This document shows positions 317-36,549 of a stretch of 36,578 nucleotides of DNA, in pieces (position 1 is the stretch's first letter; the number at the start of each line of letters is the position of its first letter). The notes below the pieces were generated by a model that saw only the letters and a program-made list of their open reading frames with translations, did not search any database and was not told the DNA's origin. The DNA is from a virus, in the IMG/VR virus record IMGVR_UViG_3300008450_000166, positions 1 to 36,578 of that record. One strand, 5' to 3'. The position numbers and the translations under genes are program-made.

Positions 317-1900
317 ATGAAAACAATCACAAAAACAATTTATGCAATCGCATTGACAATCCTTGCGTTTGCATCCACCACCGAAGCACAAACAAAGCGA
401 AGGGTGGGCGAGTATTATGTAACAACGAAGCCGACATTTGCTGCGACCGCTGTGAATGACTTGGCAATTGAAACTCCAATCAGAAAGGTCTGGGAGTATT
501 ACACGAACAGCACGACCGTCACAACCGCAAACCGATGGAGGGAAGTAACCGACACGGCAATCACAAACAGATATTTTTCTAATGCAATCAATGGCACTAA
601 CGGCACTAACGGCACGAATGGTGCTAACGGAAAGGATGCCACGATAACAATTGGTAGTGTAAACACAACAACTCTGCCAGCAGGCTCTCAGGCGCAAGTC
701 ACAATCACAGATGCGAACCCTTCAACAAGTGACGCGACATTAAATTTTCAGTTTGGTATTCCACAAGGAGCGCAAGGTGCATCTGGAAGCGGTGGAAGCG
801 GAACTATCAACATGGGGCAATTTCCTTTTATCATTGTTATATCAAACAAGGTTGACGATACAGCACAACTGCAAGCAGCAATTGATTCTGCAAAAACAAA
901 TTGGAAAACAATTTGGTTGAATGGAGTTTACCGAGTAAGCAACACGCTCTGGGTTGCACGCGAACATATCTTTCTTGACATTCGTGGTTACGCAGAACTC
1001 AGGGCAATCAACTCAAATAAATTTACAATGCTCATGTCGCCCGTTCCTCCGAACAACGGTGACGCAGAAGGAGCATACACAAACAGACGCATATCAATTG
1101 ACAAGATTCATTTCAGAGGGTTGAACAACGCTCAGTCTGGAATCAACTTTCAGAGTTCACTTGGTGTTTCAATCACAGAGTGCTATGGATGGGAACTTGA
1201 TGTGTTTATTACAATGCCGTTTGGATTGCGTGCAAAGATTGACCATTGCGAGGCGAATGGTTGCAGAGTTGGTTTTGTGATTACAACTGGCGAAGGTAGG
1301 TGGCAAGGTGCTGGCTCATCAACATCATGCTCAAACGGAGCAATCTTTACAAACAACAGAGTCTATTGTCAGTCATGGACAGACACAGCCGTTGTAATGG
1401 TTGACGCATCGCATCTGCAAATGAGAAACAATGTAATTGAAGGACACTCTGCAAAGGTTGGTCTGTACTACAAATCAACAGCAACAACAGCAGACGGAGC
1501 AAACCTTTATGACTGGCACTTTGAATTGATAAACGGAACGACAGACGCGCAACTTATCATCAGGTCGTCAACACGAAACCACACGCTTGACAGAGTTTAC
1601 TTTTACACGAACCCGAACTGGACAAGCATGAAAGGCTGGCATCTGAAACTTGAAGGTGGTGGATATAAGCAAATTGATTTTGTGAACTATTCATCTGGCA
1701 AGTTCTATGACGGAAGCAAAGGCGCATCAATCGCGCATGATGCTGGCACGAATTACAACTTCATCAATTGTGACGACCCTTTGAGAAATCAAACTACCGT
1801 CAAGTCTTTATTCAACGCGACAATCAACTATGCTTGTGGAACAACTGCTGGAACACGCGGTGCAAACACATTCTGTTTTCAGAACCCAGTAAACCGATAA
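317..1900 (+). CDS. tailspike/tail fibre with signal peptide, collagen-like repeats and beta-helix
   Basis: About 527 residues from ATG 317; an ATG at 308 is the alternative. The N-terminus (MKTITKTIYAIALTILAF, then STTEA/Q) is a classical signal peptide with a predicted cleavage before QTKRR. Around residues 95-110 there is a Gly-Thr-Asn / Gly-Ala-Asn triplet run of collagen type, and a Gly-Ser-rich hinge follows near residue 160. The remaining roughly 340 residues have the repetitive Asn/Gly and hydrophobic pattern of a right-handed beta-helix, as in pectate-lyase-fold tailspikes. Probable role: host surface recognition or glycan depolymerisation; no catalytic residues can be assigned by eye. 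A cleavable signal on a virion protein is unusual. Confidence 0.7.
   Translation: MKTITKTIYAIALTILAFASTTEAQTKRRVGEYYVTTKPTFAATAVNDLAIETPIRKVWEYYTNSTTVTTANRWREVTDTAITNRYFSNAINGTNGTNGTNGANGKDATITIGSVNTTTLPAGSQAQVTITDANPSTSDATLNFQFGIPQGAQGASGSGGSGTINMGQFPFIIVISNKVDDTAQLQAAIDSAKTNWKTIWLNGVYRVSNTLWVAREHIFLDIRGYAELRAINSNKFTMLMSPVPPNNGDAEGAYTNRRISIDKIHFRGLNNAQSGINFQSSLGVSITECYGWELDVFITMPFGLRAKIDHCEANGCRVGFVITTGEGRWQGAGSSTSCSNGAIFTNNRVYCQSWTDTAVVMVDASHLQMRNNVIEGHSAKVGLYYKSTATTADGANLYDWHFELINGTTDAQLIIRSSTRNHTLDRVYFYTNPNWTSMKGWHLKLEGGGYKQIDFVNYSSGKFYDGSKGASIAHDAGTNYNFINCDDPLRNQTTVKSLFNATINYACGTTAGTRGANTFCFQNPVNR
590..645 (+). repeat. 9-base tandem repeats encoding collagen-like triplets
   Basis: Imperfect tandem copies of GGCACTAAC / GGCACGAAT / GGTGCTAAC encode Gly-Thr-Asn and Gly-Ala-Asn. 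Such short in-frame repeats can expand or contract and change fibre length. The protein pattern Gly-X-Y is typical of trimeric phage fibre stalks. Confidence 0.65.
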
Positions 1901-1904
1901 CAAG

Positions 1905-2108
1905 ATGGCAAACAAGAAACCGAAATACAGATTCTGGAAATCCGAAACAGATGGCTTGTGGTACTTCCACCTTCGCGGTGCGAATGGTAAGGTGCAACAA
2001 CCATCAGAGGGATATGCCAGCAAACAAAAGTGCGTTGAAGGAATTGAACGCGCTCGCAGAAACGCAACCATCGCAATCATTGAAGAGATAAAAGACCCAA
2101 ACCCATGA
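1905..2108 (+). CDS. DUF1508 (YegP-like) domain protein
   Basis: A 67-residue single-domain protein. The segment WYFHLRGANGKV followed by SEGYASKQKCVEGIERARRNA matches the DUF1508/YegP repeat (FxLKAxNGxxIxxSExYxSKxxxxxGIxxVxxNA in bacterial members). The family's biochemical role is not established. It starts four bases after the tailspike stop and overlaps the ParB-like gene by four bases (ATGA), so it probably belongs to the same transcript as the DNA-modification block. Whether it takes part in modification is unknown. Confidence 0.75.
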   Translation: MANKKPKYRFWKSETDGLWYFHLRGANGKVQQPSEGYASKQKCVEGIERARRNATIAIIEEIKDPNP

Positions 2109-2662
2109 GCGTTGAAATCACAAAAACAGAATTCGTTGACATCAATTCAATAAGGTCAAACGAAAAGAATCCGCGTTACATTAAGGATAAGGAGTTTCAA
2201 GAACTGGTCAAAAGCGTAACCGACTTTCCAGAGATGCTTGAAGCAAGACCGTGTGTTGTTGACGAGGATGGAATCATACTCGGTGGCAATATGCGTCACC
2301 GCGCTGCTGTTGCTGCTGGATTGAAGCAGATACCAATTGTTCGCATGATTGGATTAAGTGAAGAAAAGAAGCGAGAGTTTATAATCAAAGACAATGTAAG
2401 CAAAGGAAGCTGGGATTGGGATATGCTTGCAAATGAATGGGATTTAAGTGAATTAAATGAATTCGGATTCGATGCTTTCAAATACAATCCAGTCAATCTT
2501 GAAGATTATTTCAAAGAAGCAACTGAAAATGAAACCGAAACCGATAAAGTGAAAATAACACTAATACTAACAAAAGATGAATCAAAAAAAATAATCGAAG
2601 CAACAAAAAAATATGACAAAACAATTGAAGGTGGAATATTAAAAATGATTGACAGTATTTAA
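2105..2662 (+). CDS. ParB/sulfiredoxin-fold protein, possible DpdB-type partner of DpdA
   Basis: 185 residues. Residues 10-100 carry ParB-like nuclease-domain motifs: a NPR box (22-24), then IILGGNMRHRAAVAAG around residues 57-72, the equivalent of the ParB GERR box. A second half (about 95-185) ends in a helical segment and is clearly AT-richer than the first. ParB-like proteins of this type usually sit beside phage DNA methylases; here the next gene, two bases downstream, encodes a DpdA-like transglycosylase. In bacterial dpd islands DpdB, described as a ParB-superfamily ATPase, acts with DpdA to insert preQ0 into DNA. A similar partnership here is inference from position and fold. Confidence 0.75.
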   Translation: MSVEITKTEFVDINSIRSNEKNPRYIKDKEFQELVKSVTDFPEMLEARPCVVDEDGIILGGNMRHRAAVAAGLKQIPIVRMIGLSEEKKREFIIKDNVSKGSWDWDMLANEWDLSELNEFGFDAFKYNPVNLEDYFKEATENETETDKVKITLILTKDESKKIIEATKKYDKTIEGGILKMIDSI

Positions 2663-2664
2663 TC

Positions 2665-3402
2665 ATGATAATCTATTTAGCGGGATTAACAAACAAAGAG
2701 TTGTTGTTGATTAAAGATAAAGCGTACATTTTAGAGTCATTTGCTTATATCAAAAAACATAAGAAATGTATTTCAGAGTTATTGAAACATGAATTTATTT
2801 TAGATAGCGGAGCATTTACATTTATAGGAAACAATAAAAAAAAAATAGATTGGGATTCTTACACCGATTACTACATTGAATTTATTAATAAATACGATAT
2901 AAAGAATTATTTTGAATTGGATATTTATTCAATTGTAGGATTAGAAGAAACAGAGCGATTGAGAAAAAAAATTGAACGAGCAACCAATAAAAAATCAATT
3001 CCGGTCTGGCACATATATTTGGGAATTGATTACTTCAAAAAAATGTGCGAAAATTATTCATATATAGCAATCGGTGCAAGTGGAAGGCACGACAGTAAGT
3101 GGACGCGAAGCAACCCAGATAAATTAAAAGCCTTGATTGATTACGCTTCATCAAAAAAAGTAAGGGTGCATGGTTTAGGTTACACCAACATGACAATGTT
3201 AAATGAATTAAATTTCTATTCAGTTGATAGCACTTCATGGATGAATGGTTCTAAATATGGAGAAGTTCAATATTTTGATGGAAGGATAATAAGAAAAGAA
3301 TCTACAAAAAAACACAAGGCAAAAACCATTGATTCAAAAGAGATAATTAAAAACAATATCAATCAATGGTTGAGTTATCAAAAATACATGAAACATAAAT
3401 GA
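2665..3402 (+). CDS. dpdA: DpdA-like DNA-guanine transglycosylase
   Basis: 245 residues, the size of compact phage DpdA proteins. The TGT-barrel landmarks are visible: LDSGAFT (D47, candidate general acid/base), YFELDIY (D86, candidate nucleophile), IAIGASG (135-140), VHGLGYTN (168-175) and YSVDSTSW (185-192). The family exchanges guanine in DNA for a 7-deazaguanine base, in contrast to tRNA-acting Tgt. It starts two bases after the ParB-like gene and overlaps the next gene by ATGA, in an AT-rich patch. Downstream genes supply the modified base. Substrate (preQ0, CDG or another derivative) cannot be read from the sequence. Confidence 0.85.
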   Translation: MIIYLAGLTNKELLLIKDKAYILESFAYIKKHKKCISELLKHEFILDSGAFTFIGNNKKKIDWDSYTDYYIEFINKYDIKNYFELDIYSIVGLEETERLRKKIERATNKKSIPVWHIYLGIDYFKKMCENYSYIAIGASGRHDSKWTRSNPDKLKALIDYASSKKVRVHGLGYTNMTMLNELNFYSVDSTSWMNGSKYGEVQYFDGRIIRKESTKKHKAKTIDSKEIIKNNINQWLSYQKYMKHK

Positions 3403-4151
3403 ATATAATCGGTCATTCAACAATTGGCTTAATAGGGTATTTAATCACTAATGAATATTTGTTTTTGATAGGAAGTATCATTCCAGATTCAGCATTAATA
3501 TTCAATGAATTAAAATTGAAACAATTCGACAAATGGGATGTGAAATATAAATGGATGTATGATTTAACGCATTCACTTTATGCACCATTAATCATAAGTT
3601 TCATTTCTATTCCTTTGTTTGTTGGTTGGTTAATTCATATTTTAATTGATGTGCCTTTTCATTCATCATCGTTCAGATGGAAGCCATTTTTATTTGAAAG
3701 GTACAAAGAAAAAAGAAAAGTGTTATTGCTTAGTGGTGGTGCAGATAGTATTGCGTGTGCCGAAATAGAAAGGAATTACGATTGTATATTCTTTGATTAC
3801 GGTCAGAAATATTTAAGTTCAGAGCTTGAATGTGCAGTCGAATATTGCAATAAGAAAAATCTAAAGTTGCAGATAATCAAGACGGAATGGGGACACGATT
3901 GCAAAAACAGAAATTATTTAATGATAACTAAGATACTGCAACTTGGATATGATGAAGTTATAATTGGCACAAGGAATTTATTTCCTTTTACAGATAAATA
4001 CAAAGACAGTAATTGGTTTAATCTAAAGATGCTTCAATATCTTTATGGCATTTATATTAATATGCCTTTGATTGGAAAATTAAAGTATCAAATAATTAAA
4101 CTCACAAACAATTATAAATACTATTCAACAGAAAAACAATGTACACAATAG
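3399..4151 (+). CDS. membrane metal-hydrolase-like domain fused to a shortened QueC-like domain
   Basis: 250 residues in one unbroken frame. Residues 1-90 resemble the DUF457/YdjM-type membrane-bound metal-dependent hydrolase family: H6, PD (29-30), TH (57-58) and HILID (80-84), with hydrophobic segments near 8-28 and 61-84. Residues 107-250 are QueC-like: PP-loop SGGADS (112-117), FDYGQ (132-136), KNRN (169-172, matching the GRN box) and DKYKDSNW (199-206). QueC converts 7-carboxy-7-deazaguanine to preQ0 with ATP and ammonia. The usual C-terminal four-Cys zinc site is absent; only C248 remains. The gene overlaps queD by 13 bases. I know of no described fusion of this kind. Confidence 0.75.
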   Translation: MNIIGHSTIGLIGYLITNEYLFLIGSIIPDSALIFNELKLKQFDKWDVKYKWMYDLTHSLYAPLIISFISIPLFVGWLIHILIDVPFHSSSFRWKPFLFERYKEKRKVLLLSGGADSIACAEIERNYDCIFFDYGQKYLSSELECAVEYCNKKNLKLQIIKTEWGHDCKNRNYLMITKILQLGYDEVIIGTRNLFPFTDKYKDSNWFNLKMLQYLYGIYINMPLIGKLKYQIIKLTNNYKYYSTEKQCTQ

Positions 4152-4501
4152 CAAAAGAATTTCATTTCAGCGCATCGCATCAGTTAAGCGGATTGCCCGA
4201 CGACCATCCATGCTCGCGTCTTCATGGTCATAATTATGTATTCAGAGTTCACTTAAAATCCGATACTCTTAATGAAGTTGGATTTGTTGTTGATTACAGA
4301 AACCTTGACGACATCAAAAGGTTTATTGATGATGCGCTTGACCATAAACATCTGAATGATTTTCTCCCATTCAATCCAACAGCAGAGAATATGGCAAAGC
4401 ACTTTGCTATTGAGTTCAATAAAGTTCACCCAGAAGTATATGCAGTCGAAGTAGAAGAAACACCAAAAACAATTGCTCGTTATGAAATTAAAGGTATCTG
4501 A
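4139..4501 (+). CDS. queD: 6-carboxy-tetrahydropterin synthase QueD
   Basis: 120 residues, normal length for the family. Zinc ligands H14, H29 and H31 are present, with the catalytic Cys in PCSRLHGH (C25); D68-H69 and the substrate-binding E107 in VEETP complete the active site. The enzyme turns 7,8-dihydroneopterin triphosphate into 6-carboxy-5,6,7,8-tetrahydropterin, the second step to 7-deazaguanines. The gene overlaps its neighbours on both sides, consistent with coordinated expression. Its G+C content is clearly higher than that of the fusion gene just upstream. Confidence 0.93.
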   Translation: MYTIAKEFHFSASHQLSGLPDDHPCSRLHGHNYVFRVHLKSDTLNEVGFVVDYRNLDDIKRFIDDALDHKHLNDFLPFNPTAENMAKHFAIEFNKVHPEVYAVEVEETPKTIARYEIKGI

Positions 4502-5084
4502 AATATTCTACACCTTGCAAGGCGAAGGCGCAAGGGCAGGAACCGCAACAATATTCATTCGCTTATCTGGATGCAAGACAAAGCACGCTTGCGCTGCATC
4601 TGGTATAGTGTGCGACACAGAGTTCGAGAGCGGAAAAGAAATGACTCTCACGGAAATTCGTGACTGGATTTATGATAACGCTGGTGATTGTAAAGAAATC
4701 ACTTGGACTGGAGGCGAGCCACTTGACCAACTTACGGAAGAAATTATTGCAGACTTTAAGAGTTACGGATTTTTTCAAGCCGTAGAAACATCTGGACTTC
4801 AGCCGATGGTTAAAGGACTTGATTTTATTTGCCTTTCACCAAAAGTGGCAGAACATATTGTGGAAAAGAATTTCCCAGATGGAGTTACAGAACTTCGCTA
4901 TGTTCGCCACTTCGGTCAATCAATTCCAGAACCAAAAGTAAAAGCACAGCACTACTGGGTATCTCCGCATAGCGATGGATTCACTATAAACAAACGAAAC
5001 CTTGCTCACTGCATTCAATTATGTAAAGAGAATCCGAAATGGAAATTATCAGTTCAACAACACAAGCAATGGAACATCCTTTAA
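4482..5084 (+). CDS. queE: 7-carboxy-7-deazaguanine synthase QueE (radical SAM)
   Basis: 200 residues from ATG 4482 (a TTG at 4473 would add three). MKLKVSEIFYTLQGEG is the typical QueE start and TWTGGEP (75-80) the SAM-binding GGE motif. The cluster cysteines lie in CKTKHACAASGIVCDTEF (C31, C37, C44), spaced CX5CX6C instead of CX3CX2C. QueE makes 7-carboxy-7-deazaguanine from 6-carboxy-tetrahydropterin. It overlaps queD by 20 bases, and folE starts within its end. The unusual spacing belongs to recognised variation among QueE proteins, but I cannot confirm which cysteines hold the cluster. Confidence 0.9.
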   Translation: MKLKVSEIFYTLQGEGARAGTATIFIRLSGCKTKHACAASGIVCDTEFESGKEMTLTEIRDWIYDNAGDCKEITWTGGEPLDQLTEEIIADFKSYGFFQAVETSGLQPMVKGLDFICLSPKVAEHIVEKNFPDGVTELRYVRHFGQSIPEPKVKAQHYWVSPHSDGFTINKRNLAHCIQLCKENPKWKLSVQQHKQWNIL

Positions 5085-5617
5085 TGACACCAGAGGAAGC
5101 AATGAAAGTAGTCATTGCAAATTTCGACAATACAGAAAGAGAAGGGTTGAAAGAAACCCCAGTACGCTACATTAAATTCCTAAAGGAGTTTCTGAATCCC
5201 GAACCATTTAAGTTCACCACATTTGATGCAGAGGGAATTCAAACAATGATACTGCAGACAAACATACCTTTTTACTCATTGTGCGAACATCACCTTGCCC
5301 CTTTCTTTGGGGTGGCTGCCGTAGCGTATATTCCTGACGACAAGATAGTTGGGTTATCAAAACTGGCAAGATGCGTTGATTTGTATGCCCGAAGATTTCA
5401 AAATCAGGAACGCATCACAAAACAGATTGCTGACCGATTGATGTCAGAACTCAATCCGCAAGGAGTCGCAGTATCAATCACAGCACAACATCTTTGCATG
5501 GCGATGAGAGGAATAAAGAAACACAATACAAACACAACCACAACCGAACTGACTGGTCTATTTAAAGAAAACACATCTGTGAGAGCAGAATTCTTAAACG
5601 CAATCAATGGGAAGTAA
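5039..5617 (+). CDS. folE: GTP cyclohydrolase I
   Basis: 192 residues from ATG 5039, with ATG 5069 and ATG 5084 (TAATG overlap with the queE stop) as alternatives; the conserved domain begins after residue 16, so all are possible. Zinc ligands C82 and H85 (CEHH) and C153 (QHLCMAMRG) are present. The enzyme opens GTP to 7,8-dihydroneopterin triphosphate, the first step of the 7-deazaguanine route. A phage-borne folE would relieve competition with host folate synthesis. An AAAGAGAA tract upstream of 5039 is a weak argument for the long form. Confidence 0.93.
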   Translation: MEIISSTTQAMEHPLMTPEEAMKVVIANFDNTEREGLKETPVRYIKFLKEFLNPEPFKFTTFDAEGIQTMILQTNIPFYSLCEHHLAPFFGVAAVAYIPDDKIVGLSKLARCVDLYARRFQNQERITKQIADRLMSELNPQGVAVSITAQHLCMAMRGIKKHNTNTTTTELTGLFKENTSVRAEFLNAINGK

Positions 5618-6089
5618 GGTAAAAAAAACAGAGAAGAAAAAACCTGATGATGCAAACGCATCGGAGGAAATTGTTTTGAATTCTCAGGGTGATGCGTTTG
5701 CACAAATTACGCACCCACAAAAACGCGCGATGCTCCAGACTCTGGAAAAGGCTCTGGGAGTGGTTACAACGGCTTGTAATGTTGTCGGCATAAGCAGACG
5801 CAGTCATTACCATTGGATGGAAACAGACCCCGAATACAGAAGGCTGGTGAAGGCAATTGACGATGTGGTGATTGATTTTGCCGAATCGCACCTACACAAA
5901 CGGATAAAGGACGGGGACACTATTGCCACCATCTTCTTTCTGAAAACAAAGGGAAAGAAGCGCGGATATGTTGAGCGCACCGAGATAACTGGTAAGGACG
6001 GAGAACCCTTGCGTGCATTTTCATGGGATGAGTTATTCGCAGCAGCACGCAGAAACACGGACGGGAACGCAGAAACAAATAATGGATAA
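5607..6089 (+). CDS. terminase small subunit
   Basis: 160 residues, immediately upstream of the large subunit. After a charged N-terminus (KKTEKKK), residues 35-75 (MLQTLEKALGVVTTACNVVGISRRSHYHWMETDP) form a helix-turn-helix of the phBC6A51-type small terminase, and residues 75-125 resemble its oligomerisation region (FAESHLHKRIKDGDTIATIFFLKTK). It would recognise the packaging site on phage DNA. It overlaps folE by 11 bases, so packaging and DNA-modification genes appear co-transcribed. Two copies of the ATGCGTTTGCAT word (one truncated) lie in its first 100 bases and another at its end. Confidence 0.85.
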   Translation: MGSKVKKTEKKKPDDANASEEIVLNSQGDAFAQITHPQKRAMLQTLEKALGVVTTACNVVGISRRSHYHWMETDPEYRRLVKAIDDVVIDFAESHLHKRIKDGDTIATIFFLKTKGKKRGYVERTEITGKDGEPLRAFSWDELFAAARRNTDGNAETNNG

Positions 6090-6098
6090 TGCAAACGC

Positions 6099-7274
6099 AT
6101 GAACTTTTGCAAGACCTACTACGACCTGACCGAGCGATTCATCCCCTCGCGCAAACGCATTGCAATCAATCAGGGCGGTACTCGAAGCGGTAAGACATAT
6201 TCAATCATTCAGTTCTTAATTGAAACAGCAATCCGCGCCCAGATAAACGGCATGGAAGGGCGACTTATTACCATTGTCAGAAAGACGATGCCTGCGCTGA
6301 AGGCAACTGCGATGCGCGACTTCATGGAGATACTTGAAAAGATTGGGTACTATTCGGAAGAGAATCACAACAAGTCATTGAATGAATATCACCTTTGCGG
6401 AAGTGTTTTTGAATTCATCAGCCTTGACCAACCTACAAAGGTGCGAGGACGGAAACGGGATATTCTGTTTGTGAATGAAGCAAACGAACTGGACTTTGAG
6501 GACTGGCGACAATTGTTGATGCGTACAACCGACAAGGTGATTATTGATTACAACCCTTCGGACGAATATCATTGGCTCTATGACCATGTTCACACGCGAG
6601 AGGACGCAATGTTTTTCCAGACCAGTTACCTTGACAATCCATTCTTAGAGCCAGAGTTGATTGCCGAGATTGAAAGGCTGAAGGATGAGGACGAAAACTA
6701 CTGGAAGGTGTATGGACTGGGAGAACGCGGTGCAAGCGGAGAAACAATTTACACGAACTGGAAACTCATTGATGAGGAAATACAACCTACTGACATCATT
6801 GAAACAGCATACGGGCTTGACTTCGGGTTCAACAATGCGTCTGCATTGATAAAATGTATGCGTTTGAAGAACGGAGGTATTGTTCTGGATGAGTTGATAC
6901 ATCGCACGCATCTGACAAACAACGATTTGATTCAGTTGATGCGTTTGCACAACATCGGAAGGTCAAAGATTTACTGCGACCATGAGAATGACCGCATCAC
7001 GGAACTGACTCGCGCTGGTTTTCATGCCGTCAAAGCGAGTAAAGATGTCAAGGCTGGCATTGACAAACTGAAGTCAGTCACCATCTACATCACAAAGAAC
7101 AGCAGCAATCTGCTGAAGGAAATTAAAAACTACAAATGGAAGACCGACAAGAAAGGCAATGTCACAGATGAGCCAGTAAAGTTCAACGACCACTCAATGG
7201 ATGCTGCCAGATACGGGTCATTCGATTTGATTGCTGAAAGAAAACTGAAGGCGCGTGTCGCAAAAATGATTTGA
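6099..7274 (+). CDS. terL: terminase large subunit
   Basis: 391 residues. Walker A is QGGTRSGKT (25-33), Walker B ILFVNEA (122-128, catalytic E127) and the coupling motif DYNPSD (150-155). The RNase H-like nuclease shows GLDFGF (D241), YCDHEND (D294) and NDHSMDAARY (D364/D368). This is the PBSX/phage_terminase_3 layout. The protein powers DNA translocation into the prohead and cuts concatemers. Its ATG lies inside a perfect ATGCAAACGCAT word (6089-6100). Confidence 0.95.
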   Translation: MNFCKTYYDLTERFIPSRKRIAINQGGTRSGKTYSIIQFLIETAIRAQINGMEGRLITIVRKTMPALKATAMRDFMEILEKIGYYSEENHNKSLNEYHLCGSVFEFISLDQPTKVRGRKRDILFVNEANELDFEDWRQLLMRTTDKVIIDYNPSDEYHWLYDHVHTREDAMFFQTSYLDNPFLEPELIAEIERLKDEDENYWKVYGLGERGASGETIYTNWKLIDEEIQPTDIIETAYGLDFGFNNASALIKCMRLKNGGIVLDELIHRTHLTNNDLIQLMRLHNIGRSKIYCDHENDRITELTRAGFHAVKASKDVKAGIDKLKSVTIYITKNSSNLLKEIKNYKWKTDKKGNVTDEPVKFNDHSMDAARYGSFDLIAERKLKARVAKMI

Positions 7275-16395: not shown

Positions 16396-16673
16396 CAGAG
16401 CCGAAAACTAACATCAACACCGTTTATGAAATTGCAAAGCAATTGGAAATGAACGGACATCTTTCAACGATGATACGGACTGGGCTGGTTTCACCGAAGA
16501 TTCGTTTCTACCTTGAACTTTACAGCAAGTACATTCATTTCATGCAACGAGGATTGAAATCACGGGAGGCTGTTTTTCAAGTCACGATTGTTGTCGGGGT
16601 GAATGAACGAACCGTCTGGCGAGCAATCAAAGCGATGAGAACCCAAAATATTGATATGCGTTTGCATGGGTAA
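16392..16673 (+). CDS. small helix-turn-helix protein
   Basis: 93 residues. The C-terminal half (SREAVFQVTIVVGVNERTVWRAIKAM) reads as a helix-turn-helix, the turn being GVNER. The gene overlaps the tape measure by four bases and is the last of its operon. Its final codons lie in the first of four ATGCGTTTGCAT-type repeats that continue into the adjacent non-coding region. That placement suggests, without proving, an autoregulatory DNA-binding protein acting on these repeats. Confidence 0.7.
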   Translation: MTEPKTNINTVYEIAKQLEMNGHLSTMIRTGLVSPKIRFYLELYSKYIHFMQRGLKSREAVFQVTIVVGVNERTVWRAIKAMRTQNIDMRLHG

Positions 16674-16731
16674 CGCTATGCGTTTGCATACTTCACAATG
16701 CGTTTGCATGAATATTTTTATCCGTTTGCAT
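16656..16731 (+). repeat. array of ATGCGTTTGCAT words (operator/iteron-like)
   Basis: Perfect copies at 16656-16667, 16678-16689 and 16698-16709, and a partial copy CCGTTTGCAT at 16722-16731. Start-to-start spacing is 22 and 20 bases, about two helical turns. The word is an interrupted palindrome, ATGC-GTTT-GCAT. Candidate roles are operator sites for the adjacent HTH protein, replication iterons or packaging signals. Confidence 0.75.
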
Positions 16732-16739
16732 AGAAAACG

Positions 16740-17165
16740 AAAAATATTTCTGGGTGGGCTGGGTTATTCTGGAATTCATTTATAATTTTAACCGCATTGA
16801 ATTAGACATAAGGGTTAAAGCACAACCGTTCCCCTAATTGCTTAGAAGGTAAAAGCGATTGAAAACGGCAGAGAGTAAGGCATATTGCGCGTTGATGAAT
16901 CTGGAATGTTCCCACCTACATCCAGTCCCGAAACCGAAAGGAACACAACGCACCTGCAACGGGTCAGGAAACTTGATATGGATTTTGCTCAGTTGATTCT
17001 TCCTTCAAAAAAAAAGAATCAAAAACTTGAAATGAGTATTTCGGGTAAAGGTGGAGTGTATGCAATCGGCTCATAATCAGAATAAAAAAATGTTGCAAAT
17101 ATTTTCGCAAATCAAAATACATTCACCACATTTGTATTCTCTGCCGTAGGTGGCAACCAAAACCC
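16740..17165. other. non-coding region between tail and head modules, foldable
   Basis: No convincing long gene. Hairpin ATTGCTT (16837-16843)/AAGCGAT (16853-16859) is enclosed by CCGTT (16826-16830)/AACGG (16864-16868). A second element nests GTTCC (16908-16912)/GGAAC (16940-16944) inside GCGTT (16889-16893)/AACGC (16947-16951). A 45-codon frame with Cys residues (TTG 16859 to stop 16996) crosses the same bases. This could be a structured RNA, a leader or a small or decayed gene; I cannot decide. Confidence 0.35.
16859..16996 (+). CDS. possible small Cys-containing ORF
   Basis: 45 residues from TTG 16859 (or ATG 16895 for a shorter form). It reads ECSHLHPVPKPKGTQRTCNG in the middle, with three Cys and a Lys/Pro stretch, a natural-looking composition compared with the other frames. 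No family recognised, no ribosome-binding evidence, and it overlaps predicted hairpins, so it may be a chance frame or a remnant. Confidence 0.25.
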   Translation: MKTAESKAYCALMNLECSHLHPVPKPKGTQRTCNGSGNLIWILLS

Positions 17166-17203
17166 GACCGATGCTCCCGCCTTAGAGTATCGGTCATTTT
17201 TTT
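17166..17203 (+). terminator. rho-independent terminator after tail operon
   Basis: GACCGAT (17166-17172) pairs with ATCGGTC (17189-17195), followed by a T-run from 17197 to 17203. A small hairpin TGCC-GTAGGT-GGCA lies just before it. Confidence 0.8.
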
Positions 17204-17234
17204 ATAATTAGGCACACATGATGTTTGCTTTTTC

Positions 17235-17270
17235 GCCCGAAGGTTAGTGATGTTTCCTTCGGGCTTTTTA
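17235..17270 (+). terminator. second rho-independent terminator
   Basis: Perfect 9-bp stem GCCCGAAGG (17235-17243)/CCTTCGGGC (17256-17264), then TTTTT. With the element 40 bases upstream it forms a double terminator that insulates the tail operon from the head operon. Confidence 0.9.
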
Positions 17271-17314
17271 TTTGCTGACAAAATACAGCCACCAGATTAA
17301 GGGATTGCCGAACA

Positions 17315-24281: not shown

Positions 24282-24803
24282 ATGAGCATCATACACAGCA
24301 GCGAAAGTAAGTTCGTGAAGTTTGTTCTGTACAAACCTCACGAGCGTTACCGCAAGAACAAAGAGTATTCGCTTGGCGATGTCGTTTATGATGGTGGCGT
24401 TTATTATGAATATGCAAACGCATCGTCCGTAAGCGGAACAAGCCTGAGTGATGTTACATACTGGACACCTTCAGCATCCCGACCACGATATGACACGACA
24501 GCGATTGTCGGAATGATTATCGTGCTTTACTTTAAAGGAAGCCGAAATGCAGTTGCAATGTATTCGCTGAACCCATCTGGTGGTTTCCTGACGATTGACG
24601 ACACGGACAGCGCATTGTCTGAATATTCAATTGAATTAAGTCGCACACTTACTCAGAAGAAAAAAGAAGGAGTGCTGTGCGCTGAAATCAAATTAACCGA
24701 AACCAGCGTTGGAGCAGTTGACGGAGTGCAGACTACAATCATAAGCGACATTTCAATTGCAGAAATCAATTCACCGATAACTGAATTCATAAGCGTTCCA
24801 TGA
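24282..24803 (+). CDS. small appendage protein with carbohydrate-binding-like N-terminus
   Basis: 173 residues. Residues 18-55 (YRKNKEYSLGDVVYDGGVYYEYANAS to YWTPSA) carry the Y-x-x-G-D-V-V-Y-D/Y-G-x-Y-Y pattern of short chitin/cellulose-binding modules. The remainder is beta-rich without a recognised domain. It starts three bases after the previous stop and overlaps the next gene by four bases, so the appendage genes form one operon. Contains a perfect ATGCAAACGCAT word (24413-24424) encoding Tyr-Ala-Asn-Ala. Confidence 0.6.
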   Translation: MSIIHSSESKFVKFVLYKPHERYRKNKEYSLGDVVYDGGVYYEYANASSVSGTSLSDVTYWTPSASRPRYDTTAIVGMIIVLYFKGSRNAVAMYSLNPSGGFLTIDDTDSALSEYSIELSRTLTQKKKEGVLCAEIKLTETSVGAVDGVQTTIISDISIAEINSPITEFISVP

Positions 24804-27473: not shown

Positions 27474-27643
27474 AAAAAGCATGGTACAAATCTCGCGCAA
27501 TGTGGGCTGGCTATTTGCTGGTCGTGTTCGGAATCATTCATTACTGGAAGACAGAAAACCTTTCGGCATCAATGGAACTCGTGTTGATGGGGCTTGGCTT
27601 CATCGGGGTTCGTAGTGCCATTGGTAAATCAATTAAGGGATGA
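27470..27643 (+). CDS. 57-residue two-segment membrane protein, holin-like
   Basis: Starts at ATG 27470 inside the previous stop (ATGA) and ends TGA 27641-27643, overlapping the spanin start. After MKKAWYKSRAMW come a hydrophobic stretch AGYLLVVFGIIHYW and a second one, MELVLMGLGFIGV, then a Lys end. Two short TM segments with a Lys-rich N-terminus suit a small holin. Tight overlaps on both sides strongly support that it is a real gene. Confidence 0.75.
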   Translation: MKKAWYKSRAMWAGYLLVVFGIIHYWKTENLSASMELVLMGLGFIGVRSAIGKSIKG

Positions 27644-28173
27644 AATTGATAAATGCGTTTGCATTTATAGTTATTGCGTTTGCATTCACTTCGTGTTGCC
27701 CGAAAGTGTTGCAGACCGAACAAACAACCAGTCGCGTCACAACATCGGACACAATCTACCTGAGAGATACGATTGAAATTCCGACTGCGACTGCGACTGG
27801 CTTGTTTGATTCCGCTAAATTCATGACAATATGTGACAGCATATTGCTTTTGAAGTCAGGACAAGGCATAGAAATCACAAACACAGAAACAAACACAGAA
27901 ACAAAATCAGTTCCGCGCATCCAGACAATTAAAATTGTAAAGGATACGGCTGGCTTTTTCAGAATTCAAGCCGACATTTCAAGTTACATGGCGGAAATTG
28001 ATTCGCTCCGCAAGGTGATAACAACAAAGGATTCAGTTAGCACCATTACAACAAAGATTATCGCCAAGTGCGTCAGCAAATTTCACCGATTTACGCGGAC
28101 ATTTTTCTGGTTATTTTTAGCCCTATTTTTAGGGTATATTTTGGCGAAAATCGGAGGCTTGAAATTGCCCTAA
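27640..28173 (+). CDS. unimolecular spanin (lipoprotein with C-terminal TM)
   Basis: 177 residues. The N-terminus MKLINAFAFIVIAFAFTSC ends in a lipobox-like AFTSC (Cys19, second Cys next), so it should be a lipoprotein. The middle is a soluble, helix-prone periplasmic span, and residues about 152-170 form a C-terminal TM segment (FFWLFLALFLGYILAKI). A lipoprotein anchored in the outer membrane and inserted in the inner membrane by its C-terminus is the u-spanin architecture, as in T1 gp11. It is last in the lysis cassette. The first bases encode two ATGCGTTTGCAT-type words (27653-27664, 27675-27685). Confidence 0.75.
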   Translation: MKLINAFAFIVIAFAFTSCCPKVLQTEQTTSRVTTSDTIYLRDTIEIPTATATGLFDSAKFMTICDSILLLKSGQGIEITNTETNTETKSVPRIQTIKIVKDTAGFFRIQADISSYMAEIDSLRKVITTKDSVSTITTKIIAKCVSKFHRFTRTFFWLFLALFLGYILAKIGGLKLP

Positions 28174-33877: not shown

Positions 33878-34668
33878 AATACACAAAAACAATTTCACAA
33901 TCATTACTGAAAGCCTACATCGAATATGCGATGGGATATGAATGCGGATTGCTGTTTGATGCAAAGTACATCAAGAAATCAGTCAAGGACGAACCGAGCG
34001 AAGCGATGTTGCTCGGAAAATATTTTGAGTACCGCGCGACTGGTTATGTGAACGAAGGTGAAGAGCCACCACAACCACAATTGAAGAAGGACGGATTGCC
34101 TAAAGCAGAATACGCAAGAGCAGAATCGCAAGCAATGAACTTCATTGAGCATTGCGAGGAACTCGGCATTGAGATTCTGGAGGTAGGCAAGAGAGTTGAA
34201 AAGGATGGATGCTCGCTTATTGTTGACATCATTGCATTGTACAAAGGGCGCGAAATCATAATTGACTTGAAGTATAGCGGTAAACTATACGACAAGTGGG
34301 ATGATAGTGGCTGGGCGTTGGATGGCTTTGAATATAAGATGAAGCACCACATTCAGCCAATGCACTATCAGTTTATGCTCGGATTGCCTTTCTATTATTT
34401 TGTATTCAGTTCGCAGAACGATGTGGATGCAGAGTTCTTTGAAGTCGTGATGCCACAACCAGAAACGAATGAAGTACACGCGCAAAGGATTGAAAACATC
34501 CGCGAGCGCATTGGTATGGAAATGGCGACTGGTTTCATTCCGCGACCATCGTACAAGCGTTGTATGGATTGCCCTATCTTTAATGATTGCCAACACGCAA
34601 TCAAAGCACCCGAACCAAAAGCAGTAACAATCACACCACAATACAACCAAATACTTGACAGCCTATGA
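33874..34668 (+). CDS. Cas4-like PD-(D/E)XK nuclease with Fe-S cysteines
   Basis: 264 residues. Nuclease motifs: GKYFEYRATG (48-57), VDII (117-120, D118), IIDLKYSG (129-136, D131 and K133) and QPMHYQFM (161-168). Four cysteines, C24 and C230, C233, C239 (CMDCPIFNDC), match the N-terminal plus C-terminal [4Fe-4S] layout of Cas4/AddB-type exonucleases. Likely a 5'-3' DNA exonuclease acting with the annealing protein in recombination-dependent replication. Overlaps both neighbours by four bases. Confidence 0.85.
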   Translation: MKYTKTISQSLLKAYIEYAMGYECGLLFDAKYIKKSVKDEPSEAMLLGKYFEYRATGYVNEGEEPPQPQLKKDGLPKAEYARAESQAMNFIEHCEELGIEILEVGKRVEKDGCSLIVDIIALYKGREIIIDLKYSGKLYDKWDDSGWALDGFEYKMKHHIQPMHYQFMLGLPFYYFVFSSQNDVDAEFFEVVMPQPETNEVHAQRIENIRERIGMEMATGFIPRPSYKRCMDCPIFNDCQHAIKAPEPKAVTITPQYNQILDSL

Positions 34669-35459
34669 AAGCAAAACCAAAGATGACGGTCACAGATGCA
34701 ATCATCTACACTCCGTTCAAAGATTACAGAACCGATATTGATTACAAAGAACTGACATCCGATTACAAGTACGCAGACCATTTTGAGTTCGCGTGGATTC
34801 AGTTGTTGTTGTATGGTATTGAAAACAATGGAGTGATAAAGATGCAAGGCATTGCAGACCGAGTCACATTGCCAGCACTTACGATTGGAGTTACATTGAT
34901 TCAAAATAGACTAATCGGTGTTGAATTATTCCAGATTGAAGGCTTGCCCGATGGACACTATTACAGCCTTTATGTGAATGCGTTTCTGGAAAAGAGGCAC
35001 AAGAGAATGAACGCTGTAAGAAATGCAGCACACTCACGATGGTCGGAAGGGAAGAAAGAAAAGCCGAAGAAGGAAAGAAAGCCGAAGAAGGAAAAGGTAA
35101 AGCAAGCAACAGAAGAGCCGAAGCCAGTAATTGTAAAAAAGAAAACTGATTCCGACATTGCAGTTGCGTTGCTCCGCGAAGCCTTCGCAGATGATACACT
35201 TTACCAAACATCATTGGAGTGGCTCAATGTAAGGAAAGCGAAGCGAGTGCCGAACACAGAAGGAGCAATACAAAGGCTCATTAAGCGCATCCAGATATTG
35301 AGTAACTCAAATCCGCAAGTTGCTGTCGCTATTCTGGACAAGTCAATACGAAGCGGATGGGCTGATGTGTTCCCTTTGAATGAGAAAACATTGTTAATGC
35401 AAAACACCACATACCAAGACATCTATGAACAACTCAAACAAAAGTATCAGCAAGGTTGA
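34665..35459 (+). CDS. replication-initiator-like protein (phage replisome organiser/DnaD-like)
   Basis: 264 residues. Residues 1-115 form a predicted winged-helix region (HFEFAWIQLLLYGIENNGVIKM, then NRLIGVELFQI), followed by a Lys-rich linker with repeats EKPKKERKPKKEKVK (about 125-145) encoded by imperfect DNA repeats near 35059-35100, and a helical C-terminal domain (about 160-264). Winged helix, linker and helical domain is the plan of DnaD-like phage initiators. No helicase or polymerase is encoded, so it probably recruits host replication proteins. Confidence 0.6.
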   Translation: MKAKPKMTVTDAIIYTPFKDYRTDIDYKELTSDYKYADHFEFAWIQLLLYGIENNGVIKMQGIADRVTLPALTIGVTLIQNRLIGVELFQIEGLPDGHYYSLYVNAFLEKRHKRMNAVRNAAHSRWSEGKKEKPKKERKPKKEKVKQATEEPKPVIVKKKTDSDIAVALLREAFADDTLYQTSLEWLNVRKAKRVPNTEGAIQRLIKRIQILSNSNPQVAVAILDKSIRSGWADVFPLNEKTLLMQNTTYQDIYEQLKQKYQQG

Positions 35460-36322: not shown

Positions 36323-36549
36323 CTGAGCCGATTTACGAGATACATGAAACTGGAAGCAGTCATGTAATTGTCAGGGATGATGCAATGAAGGTGATTGAAT
36401 ACATCCGCATTCAGTATGGATGCTCACTTGTTACTGCGCTTGAAAGCAGAGGCGTGATGGTTACAATGACCGATGCAACTGGAAGGTATCTGCTTGTGAT
36501 TAAAGACGGACGCACACACTTTGAAAAACTACCCGATGCAAACGCATAA
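36319..36549 (+). CDS. small hypothetical protein, last complete gene
   Basis: 76 residues, alpha/beta, no TM. Contains an RDDAMKVIEYIRIQYGCSLV helix and a C-terminal beta pair ending FEKLPDANA. The last codons form a perfect ATGCAAACGCAT word (36536-36547) that also holds the start of the frame running across the window ends. No family recognised. Confidence 0.6.
   Translation: MTEPIYEIHETGSSHVIVRDDAMKVIEYIRIQYGCSLVTALESRGVMVTMTDATGRYLLVIKDGRTHFEKLPDANA

Follow-up and report, generated by a model that had tools for sequence, protein, structure and literature searches.

The stretch of DNA analysed here (the window, 36,578 nucleotides) is the whole virus record of a tailed phage, with genes for TerS, TerL, a tape measure protein, a head protease and a portal protein; the portal matches those of Bacteroides, Phocaeicola and Cellulophaga phages. 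Four copies of a short word are clustered at the end of a gene for a small HTH protein, further copies are scattered through the genome, and a gene for a λ-O-like protein lies 18 kb from the cluster. The features are collected in Table 1.

Table 1. Word sites and associated genes in the window
Feature	Coordinates	Strand	Details
Site pair within gene	343-373	.	TGCAATCGCA (343) and TGCGTTTGCA (364), 21 bp apart
Site pair, 5′ part of TerS	5651-5702		5651 minus, 5693 plus; 42 bp apart
Sites at and near TerS/TerL junction	6090-6159	.	6090 perfect (at the junction), 6150 one mismatch
Site pair in TerL	6836-6868	+	Two one-mismatch sites, 23 bp apart
HTH protein, 93 aa	16392-16673	+	Weak HTH_11/HTH_23 matches; last codons form the first word of the array
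Candidate iteron array/origin	16656-16731	+	Four words: three ATGCGTTTGCAT and one ATCCGTTTGCAT
Perfect copies in array	16656-16667, 16678-16689, 16698-16709	+	ATGCGTTTGCAT
Fourth copy in array	16720-16731	+	ATCCGTTTGCAT, one mismatch
Lone perfect word	24413-24422	-	Within ORF 24282-24803
Two perfect 10-mers	27654-27684	+	21 bp apart, near start of ORF 27640-28173
λ-O-like replication initiator, proposed reader of the word	34665-35459	+	phrog_678 match and motif RNAAHSRW
Perfect word	36537-36546	-	At end of last ORF
Further perfect 10-mers	6940, 7900, 9531, 12949, 13962, 21209

The preliminary description had reported three perfect copies and a partial one at the array, about two helical turns apart, starting within the final codons of the HTH protein, from where they run on into non-coding DNA. 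Positions and matches were confirmed, with start-to-start distances of 22, 20 and 22 bp. The first copy forms the codons for MRLH in the C-terminal ...NIDMRLHG* of the HTH protein, and three of the four sites are non-coding. Within ATGCGTTTGCAT, ATGC-N4-GCAT is a true interrupted palindrome. The array is the densest cluster of word sites in the phage genome; when sites were placed at random, four fell within 100 bp in 1% of trials. The DNA beside it (16700-16820) is 60-75% A+T, compared with 58% for the genome and a maximum of 86% elsewhere.

The array and the protease gene are separated by about 650 bp that hold no convincing gene (16740-17275) and are absent in the sister phage described below. 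A 13-nt long-range stem (16865-16877 with 17135-17147) and a terminator-like hairpin (17166-17195) in this region suggest a structured RNA, with a fold z-score of only -2.0. Rfam, tRNA and nucleotide searches of the array flank found nothing.

The array is the peak of a larger, genome-wide pattern. The most over-represented 10-mers in the phage include ATGCGTTTGC (16 copies, 0.3-0.4 expected) and TGCGTTTGCA (17 copies, 0.4 expected), and the word is also among the top 9-mers. GCGTTTGC occurs 25 times against 1.8 expected. There are nine perfect copies of the 12-mer ATGCGTTTGCAT, five forward and four reverse, and none of the reversed control word; matches with up to two mismatches number 40, compared with 8.7 in shuffled sequence. 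Most copies lie within genes, in differing reading frames, and the dispersed sites have no bias toward gene starts or ends. Coding copies of TGCGTTTGCA were compared with shuffles in which synonymous codons were swapped, so that all protein sequences and the codon usage stayed as they were. The shuffled genomes held 0.65 copies on average (maximum 4 in 500), against 14 observed, and it is therefore the DNA word itself that is favoured. Five site pairs outside the array lie within 15-70 bp, and four of them are 21, 21, 23 and 42 bp apart, like the arrays of other phages described below, in a test that was chosen after the data had been seen and that the sister phage fails.

The sister phage is a syntenic 28-kb contig (G399/L098) whose MCP is 69% identical to that of the window. 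In place of the window word it carries dispersed TGCGTTCGCA, with 11 copies, and a 7.7-kb relative (L099) has four; the reversed control gave none. Ten of the sister's copies are in coding DNA, against 0.24 (maximum 3) in synonymous shuffles, and TGCGTTTGCA and GCGTTTGC are absent from its coding DNA (0.49 and 2.4 expected). The window in turn has no TGCGTTCGCA, so that each sister lacks the other's word, while the variant TCCGTTYGCA is tolerated in both. Site positions are mostly non-homologous, with loose agreement in TerL and MCP; the only clearly conserved positions are those of the opposite-orientation pair in the 5′ part of TerS, which lies at almost the same place in both phages. There is no four-site array at the sister's HTH gene, and a degenerate ATGCGACTGCAT stands at the corresponding place. 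The preliminary description had taken random placement of the word in relatives as an argument against an operator- or iteron-like role. On this point the sister is informative: its word is dispersed too, yet it is changed and non-random in form.

The pattern is absent from TerL relatives and from most MCP and portal relatives. Dispersal appears limited, as far as seen, to the small clade that the window forms with its sister. Pairs of TGCGTTTGCA also occur in 16 further contigs; a similar pattern there was considered and rejected, as these are mostly peptide repeats. Other strongly over-represented words, for example CCAGTTGC and GCTGTTCC, were seen in five relatives (L213, L219, L223, G401 and G407), possibly arising from repetitive protein genes.

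Two further observations concern the region upstream of and within TerS. At 2105-5617 a ParB_N-domain gene is followed by what we take to be a possible DpdA-like gene (no family match) and by further ORFs that include QueC and others that we read as QueD, QueE and FolE. In the sister the ParB_N gene is followed instead by an apparent C5-cytosine methyltransferase gene, and 2105-5617 reads as an exchangeable DNA-modification cassette. The only perfect word copy of this region is at its end, in TerS, and the TerS site pair (5607-5702) has a possible link to packaging.

Viral contigs contain at least 119 stretches with two nearby copies of TGCGTTYGCAT. In 74 of 81 loci (79 of these stretches together with L009 and L011) the word is in an open frame no more than 400 nt from a motif of the [SAN]A..[RK][WF] type. 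The typical order in the array-bearing genes is KARxSAxxRW followed by the word array. Their N-terminal domains are DUF1376, Lin1244_N or DUF6291, their PHROG matches are annotated as primosomal or replication initiation protein, and in annotated phages the DUF1376 genes adjoin genes for a DnaB-like helicase, protein P or primase. Lin1244_N was not found in 61 Bacteroidota genomes. The copies in these arrays are spaced at 21-23, 32-35 or 42-46 bp, which corresponds to helical turns rather than codons, and all three reading frames are used for the word (27/66/111). These results therefore indicate that the word is a DNA element. Outside the arrays, TGCGTTCGCA is absent from the array-bearing loci (1.7 expected). 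The phages with the word span about 31-69% GC. Among the matches listed in a search of the open-access literature, with subscription papers outside its scope, no paper described the word as a phage iteron.

A smaller first sample of 12 annotated phage records contained mostly other motif classes, and the question was settled with a larger sample of 80 loci (L385-L464), picked by N-terminal domain alone to remove the bias of selection by the word. Within 240 nt after the motif, the word (at most one mismatch) was present in 35 of 35 initiators of the [SA]A..RW class and in 2 of the 45 others. Comparison of RW with non-RW initiators gave a Fisher p of 1e-10. The motif classes were, however, defined while the sequences were being viewed, and since some of the sampled contigs are not independent, there were fewer independent events than the counts suggest. 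The two exceptions comprise one of 10 initiators with KQR..AN.RW and one of 35 in the remaining classes, the split between SA..RW and KQR..AN.RW having been made after it was seen which lacked the word. Word density was 7.8 per kb after the motif and 0.15 per kb elsewhere in the locus. Other motif classes are accompanied by other repeated words: KQR..AN.RW by TGCCACGG/CCACGGCA, and AGKxSAxxR by CGTTGAAC. DUF1376 initiators of the NGKxGGRP class occur weakly with TGGGTTTC. Within the initiator genes of many unrelated phages, the word thus marks probable replication-start repeats.

The C-terminal half of the protein encoded at 34665-35459 in the window matches phrog_678, 'replication initiation O-like' (5.6e-09), and also lambdoid replication protein O. 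L298, a DUF1376 initiator with an array, aligns to the same part of phrog_678. The N-terminus matched no Pfam family, DUF1376, Lin1244_N and DUF6291 included; the structure model was of low confidence and the fold search was uninformative. In alignment the protein carries RNAAHSRW, which fits the [SA]A..RW class. The rule derived from other phages therefore predicts the word TGCGTTYGCA for this initiator, and this is the word that was found here independently. The gene itself holds no word sites with up to one mismatch, and its distance from the array is unlike that in all other phages seen. The sister's initiator has NAAKQKW, not RW, in its motif, and its own gene holds two perfect sites and one near site.

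We consider it likely, from these comparisons, that the words are iterons, that is, putative binding sites of the phage's own λ-O-like initiator, and that the array is a displaced four-iteron origin candidate. The iteron reading is supported by strong evidence of association, and as the densest word cluster the array is the best origin candidate. In this model each word would be an inverted pair of half-sites for the initiator, which would line up cooperatively along words standing about 21 bp, or two helical turns, apart. An O-some-like complex would then form at the array, where the initiator's O-like C-terminal part may help to recruit the helicase. From the associations described we infer both binding of the word by the initiator and origin activity of the array; any function of the dispersed copies is proposed on the same footing.

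In λ, four iterons lie inside gene O beside an AT-rich tract (PMC7466680). The window resembles λ in having four inverted-repeat iterons about two helical turns apart and an initiator with an O-like C-terminal domain. It differs in its word and DNA-reading motif, in the separation of the array from the initiator gene and in the dispersed extra copies. The intragenic TGCGTTCGCA arrays of phages with DUF1376, Lin1244_N or DUF6291 initiators are closer: the word is the same up to T/C at one position, and the spacing and the [SA]A..RW motif are the same. In those phages, however, no copy of the word lies outside the initiator gene, whereas in the window the word is found outside that gene and genome-wide. 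The arrangement would be a variant of the λ-type initiator-iteron system, with sites outside the initiator gene.

The array could instead be the operator of the adjacent HTH protein, serving to regulate itself or a neighbour, with the dispersed copies as secondary sites. The start of the array within the final codons of the HTH protein, the degenerate word at the same place in the sister, and a confident all-helical model of the protein (pLDDT 85) with weak Trp-repressor-like fold matches would fit such an operator. However, the array follows the HTH gene, and some 600 bp separate it from the next gene; the dispersed sites lack a gene-start bias; and other phage lineages have the word paired with initiators of the RW motif. 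Furthermore, many relatives have an HTH homologue and no word, and among HTH-bearing relatives the word occurs only in the two nearest. No initiator with the RW motif was recognised in those wordless HTH-bearing relatives that were read at length, the one motif match appearing spurious, which makes the HTH protein a poorer candidate than the initiator and, as far as sequence can tell, an unlikely reader of the word. We regard the operator as an unlikely explanation. Of the preliminary description's 'operator- or iteron-like', the iteron half stands, since the same word occurs at the same spacing in phage initiator genes, while the operator half finds no support, given the homologues in wordless relatives.

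A quite unlikely alternative is that the phage has adopted a motif found throughout its host's genome, one that is HIP1-like or is read by a host protein. Such a motif would account for the turnover of sites between sister phages. It would also account for the dispersal in coding DNA without gene-start bias, in which the window word resembles HIP1, the short near-palindromic, highly iterated word of cyanobacteria (PMC4390886). HIP1 is a word of the host genome, whereas the window word was enriched in none of 395 Bacteroidota genomes (among which the phage's actual host may not be included) and the sisters have private words. The difference between the two mutually exclusive sister words, the absence of the word from most related phages and its confinement to the initiator gene in unrelated word-bearing phages also argue against a host motif.

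The stoperators of mycobacteriophage L5 are dispersed short sites for one phage protein, near gene ends and in one orientation. A phage repressor that silences transcription from dispersed copies would likewise fit scattered short sites, with a partly asymmetric core, for a single phage protein. This explanation is very unlikely, as the perfect 12-mers lie in both orientations though the ORFs run forward, the sites have no bias to gene ends, and neither a repressor nor an integrase was recognised in the window. Finally, an artefact of protein composition (NANA, NAFA and MRLH peptides) and codon bias is extremely improbable: many coding copies do spell xA(N/F)A or MRLx, and peptide repeats account for the word pairs of several other phages, but the synonymous shuffles fall far short of the observed counts in both window and sister, and most array sites are non-coding.

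Returning to the initiator as the reader of the word, we propose more tentatively, at somewhat less than even chances, that the iterons have left the initiator gene and been kept genome-wide, so that the initiator would bind at many places and not at one compact origin, and that a motif-to-iteron-word code is common to the initiators of unrelated phages. Genome-wide binding might provide many potential start sites, or might serve genome organisation, segregation or packaging. Extra origin copies inhibit λ (PMC4488673), and dispersed sites are therefore expected to carry a cost and need an explanation. Possible answers are that the sites are weak, that replication has several starts or that the initiator has a second role.

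The comparison links a specific origin word to a short motif in the initiator, and does so in phages that differ widely in GC content. Should the pairing be borne out in the laboratory, protein sequence could be used to predict origins for DUF1376, Lin1244_N and DUF6291, which are families of unknown function. In that case the window and its sister would offer a natural example of dispersed origin-type sites, in which one could test directly why origins are normally compact.
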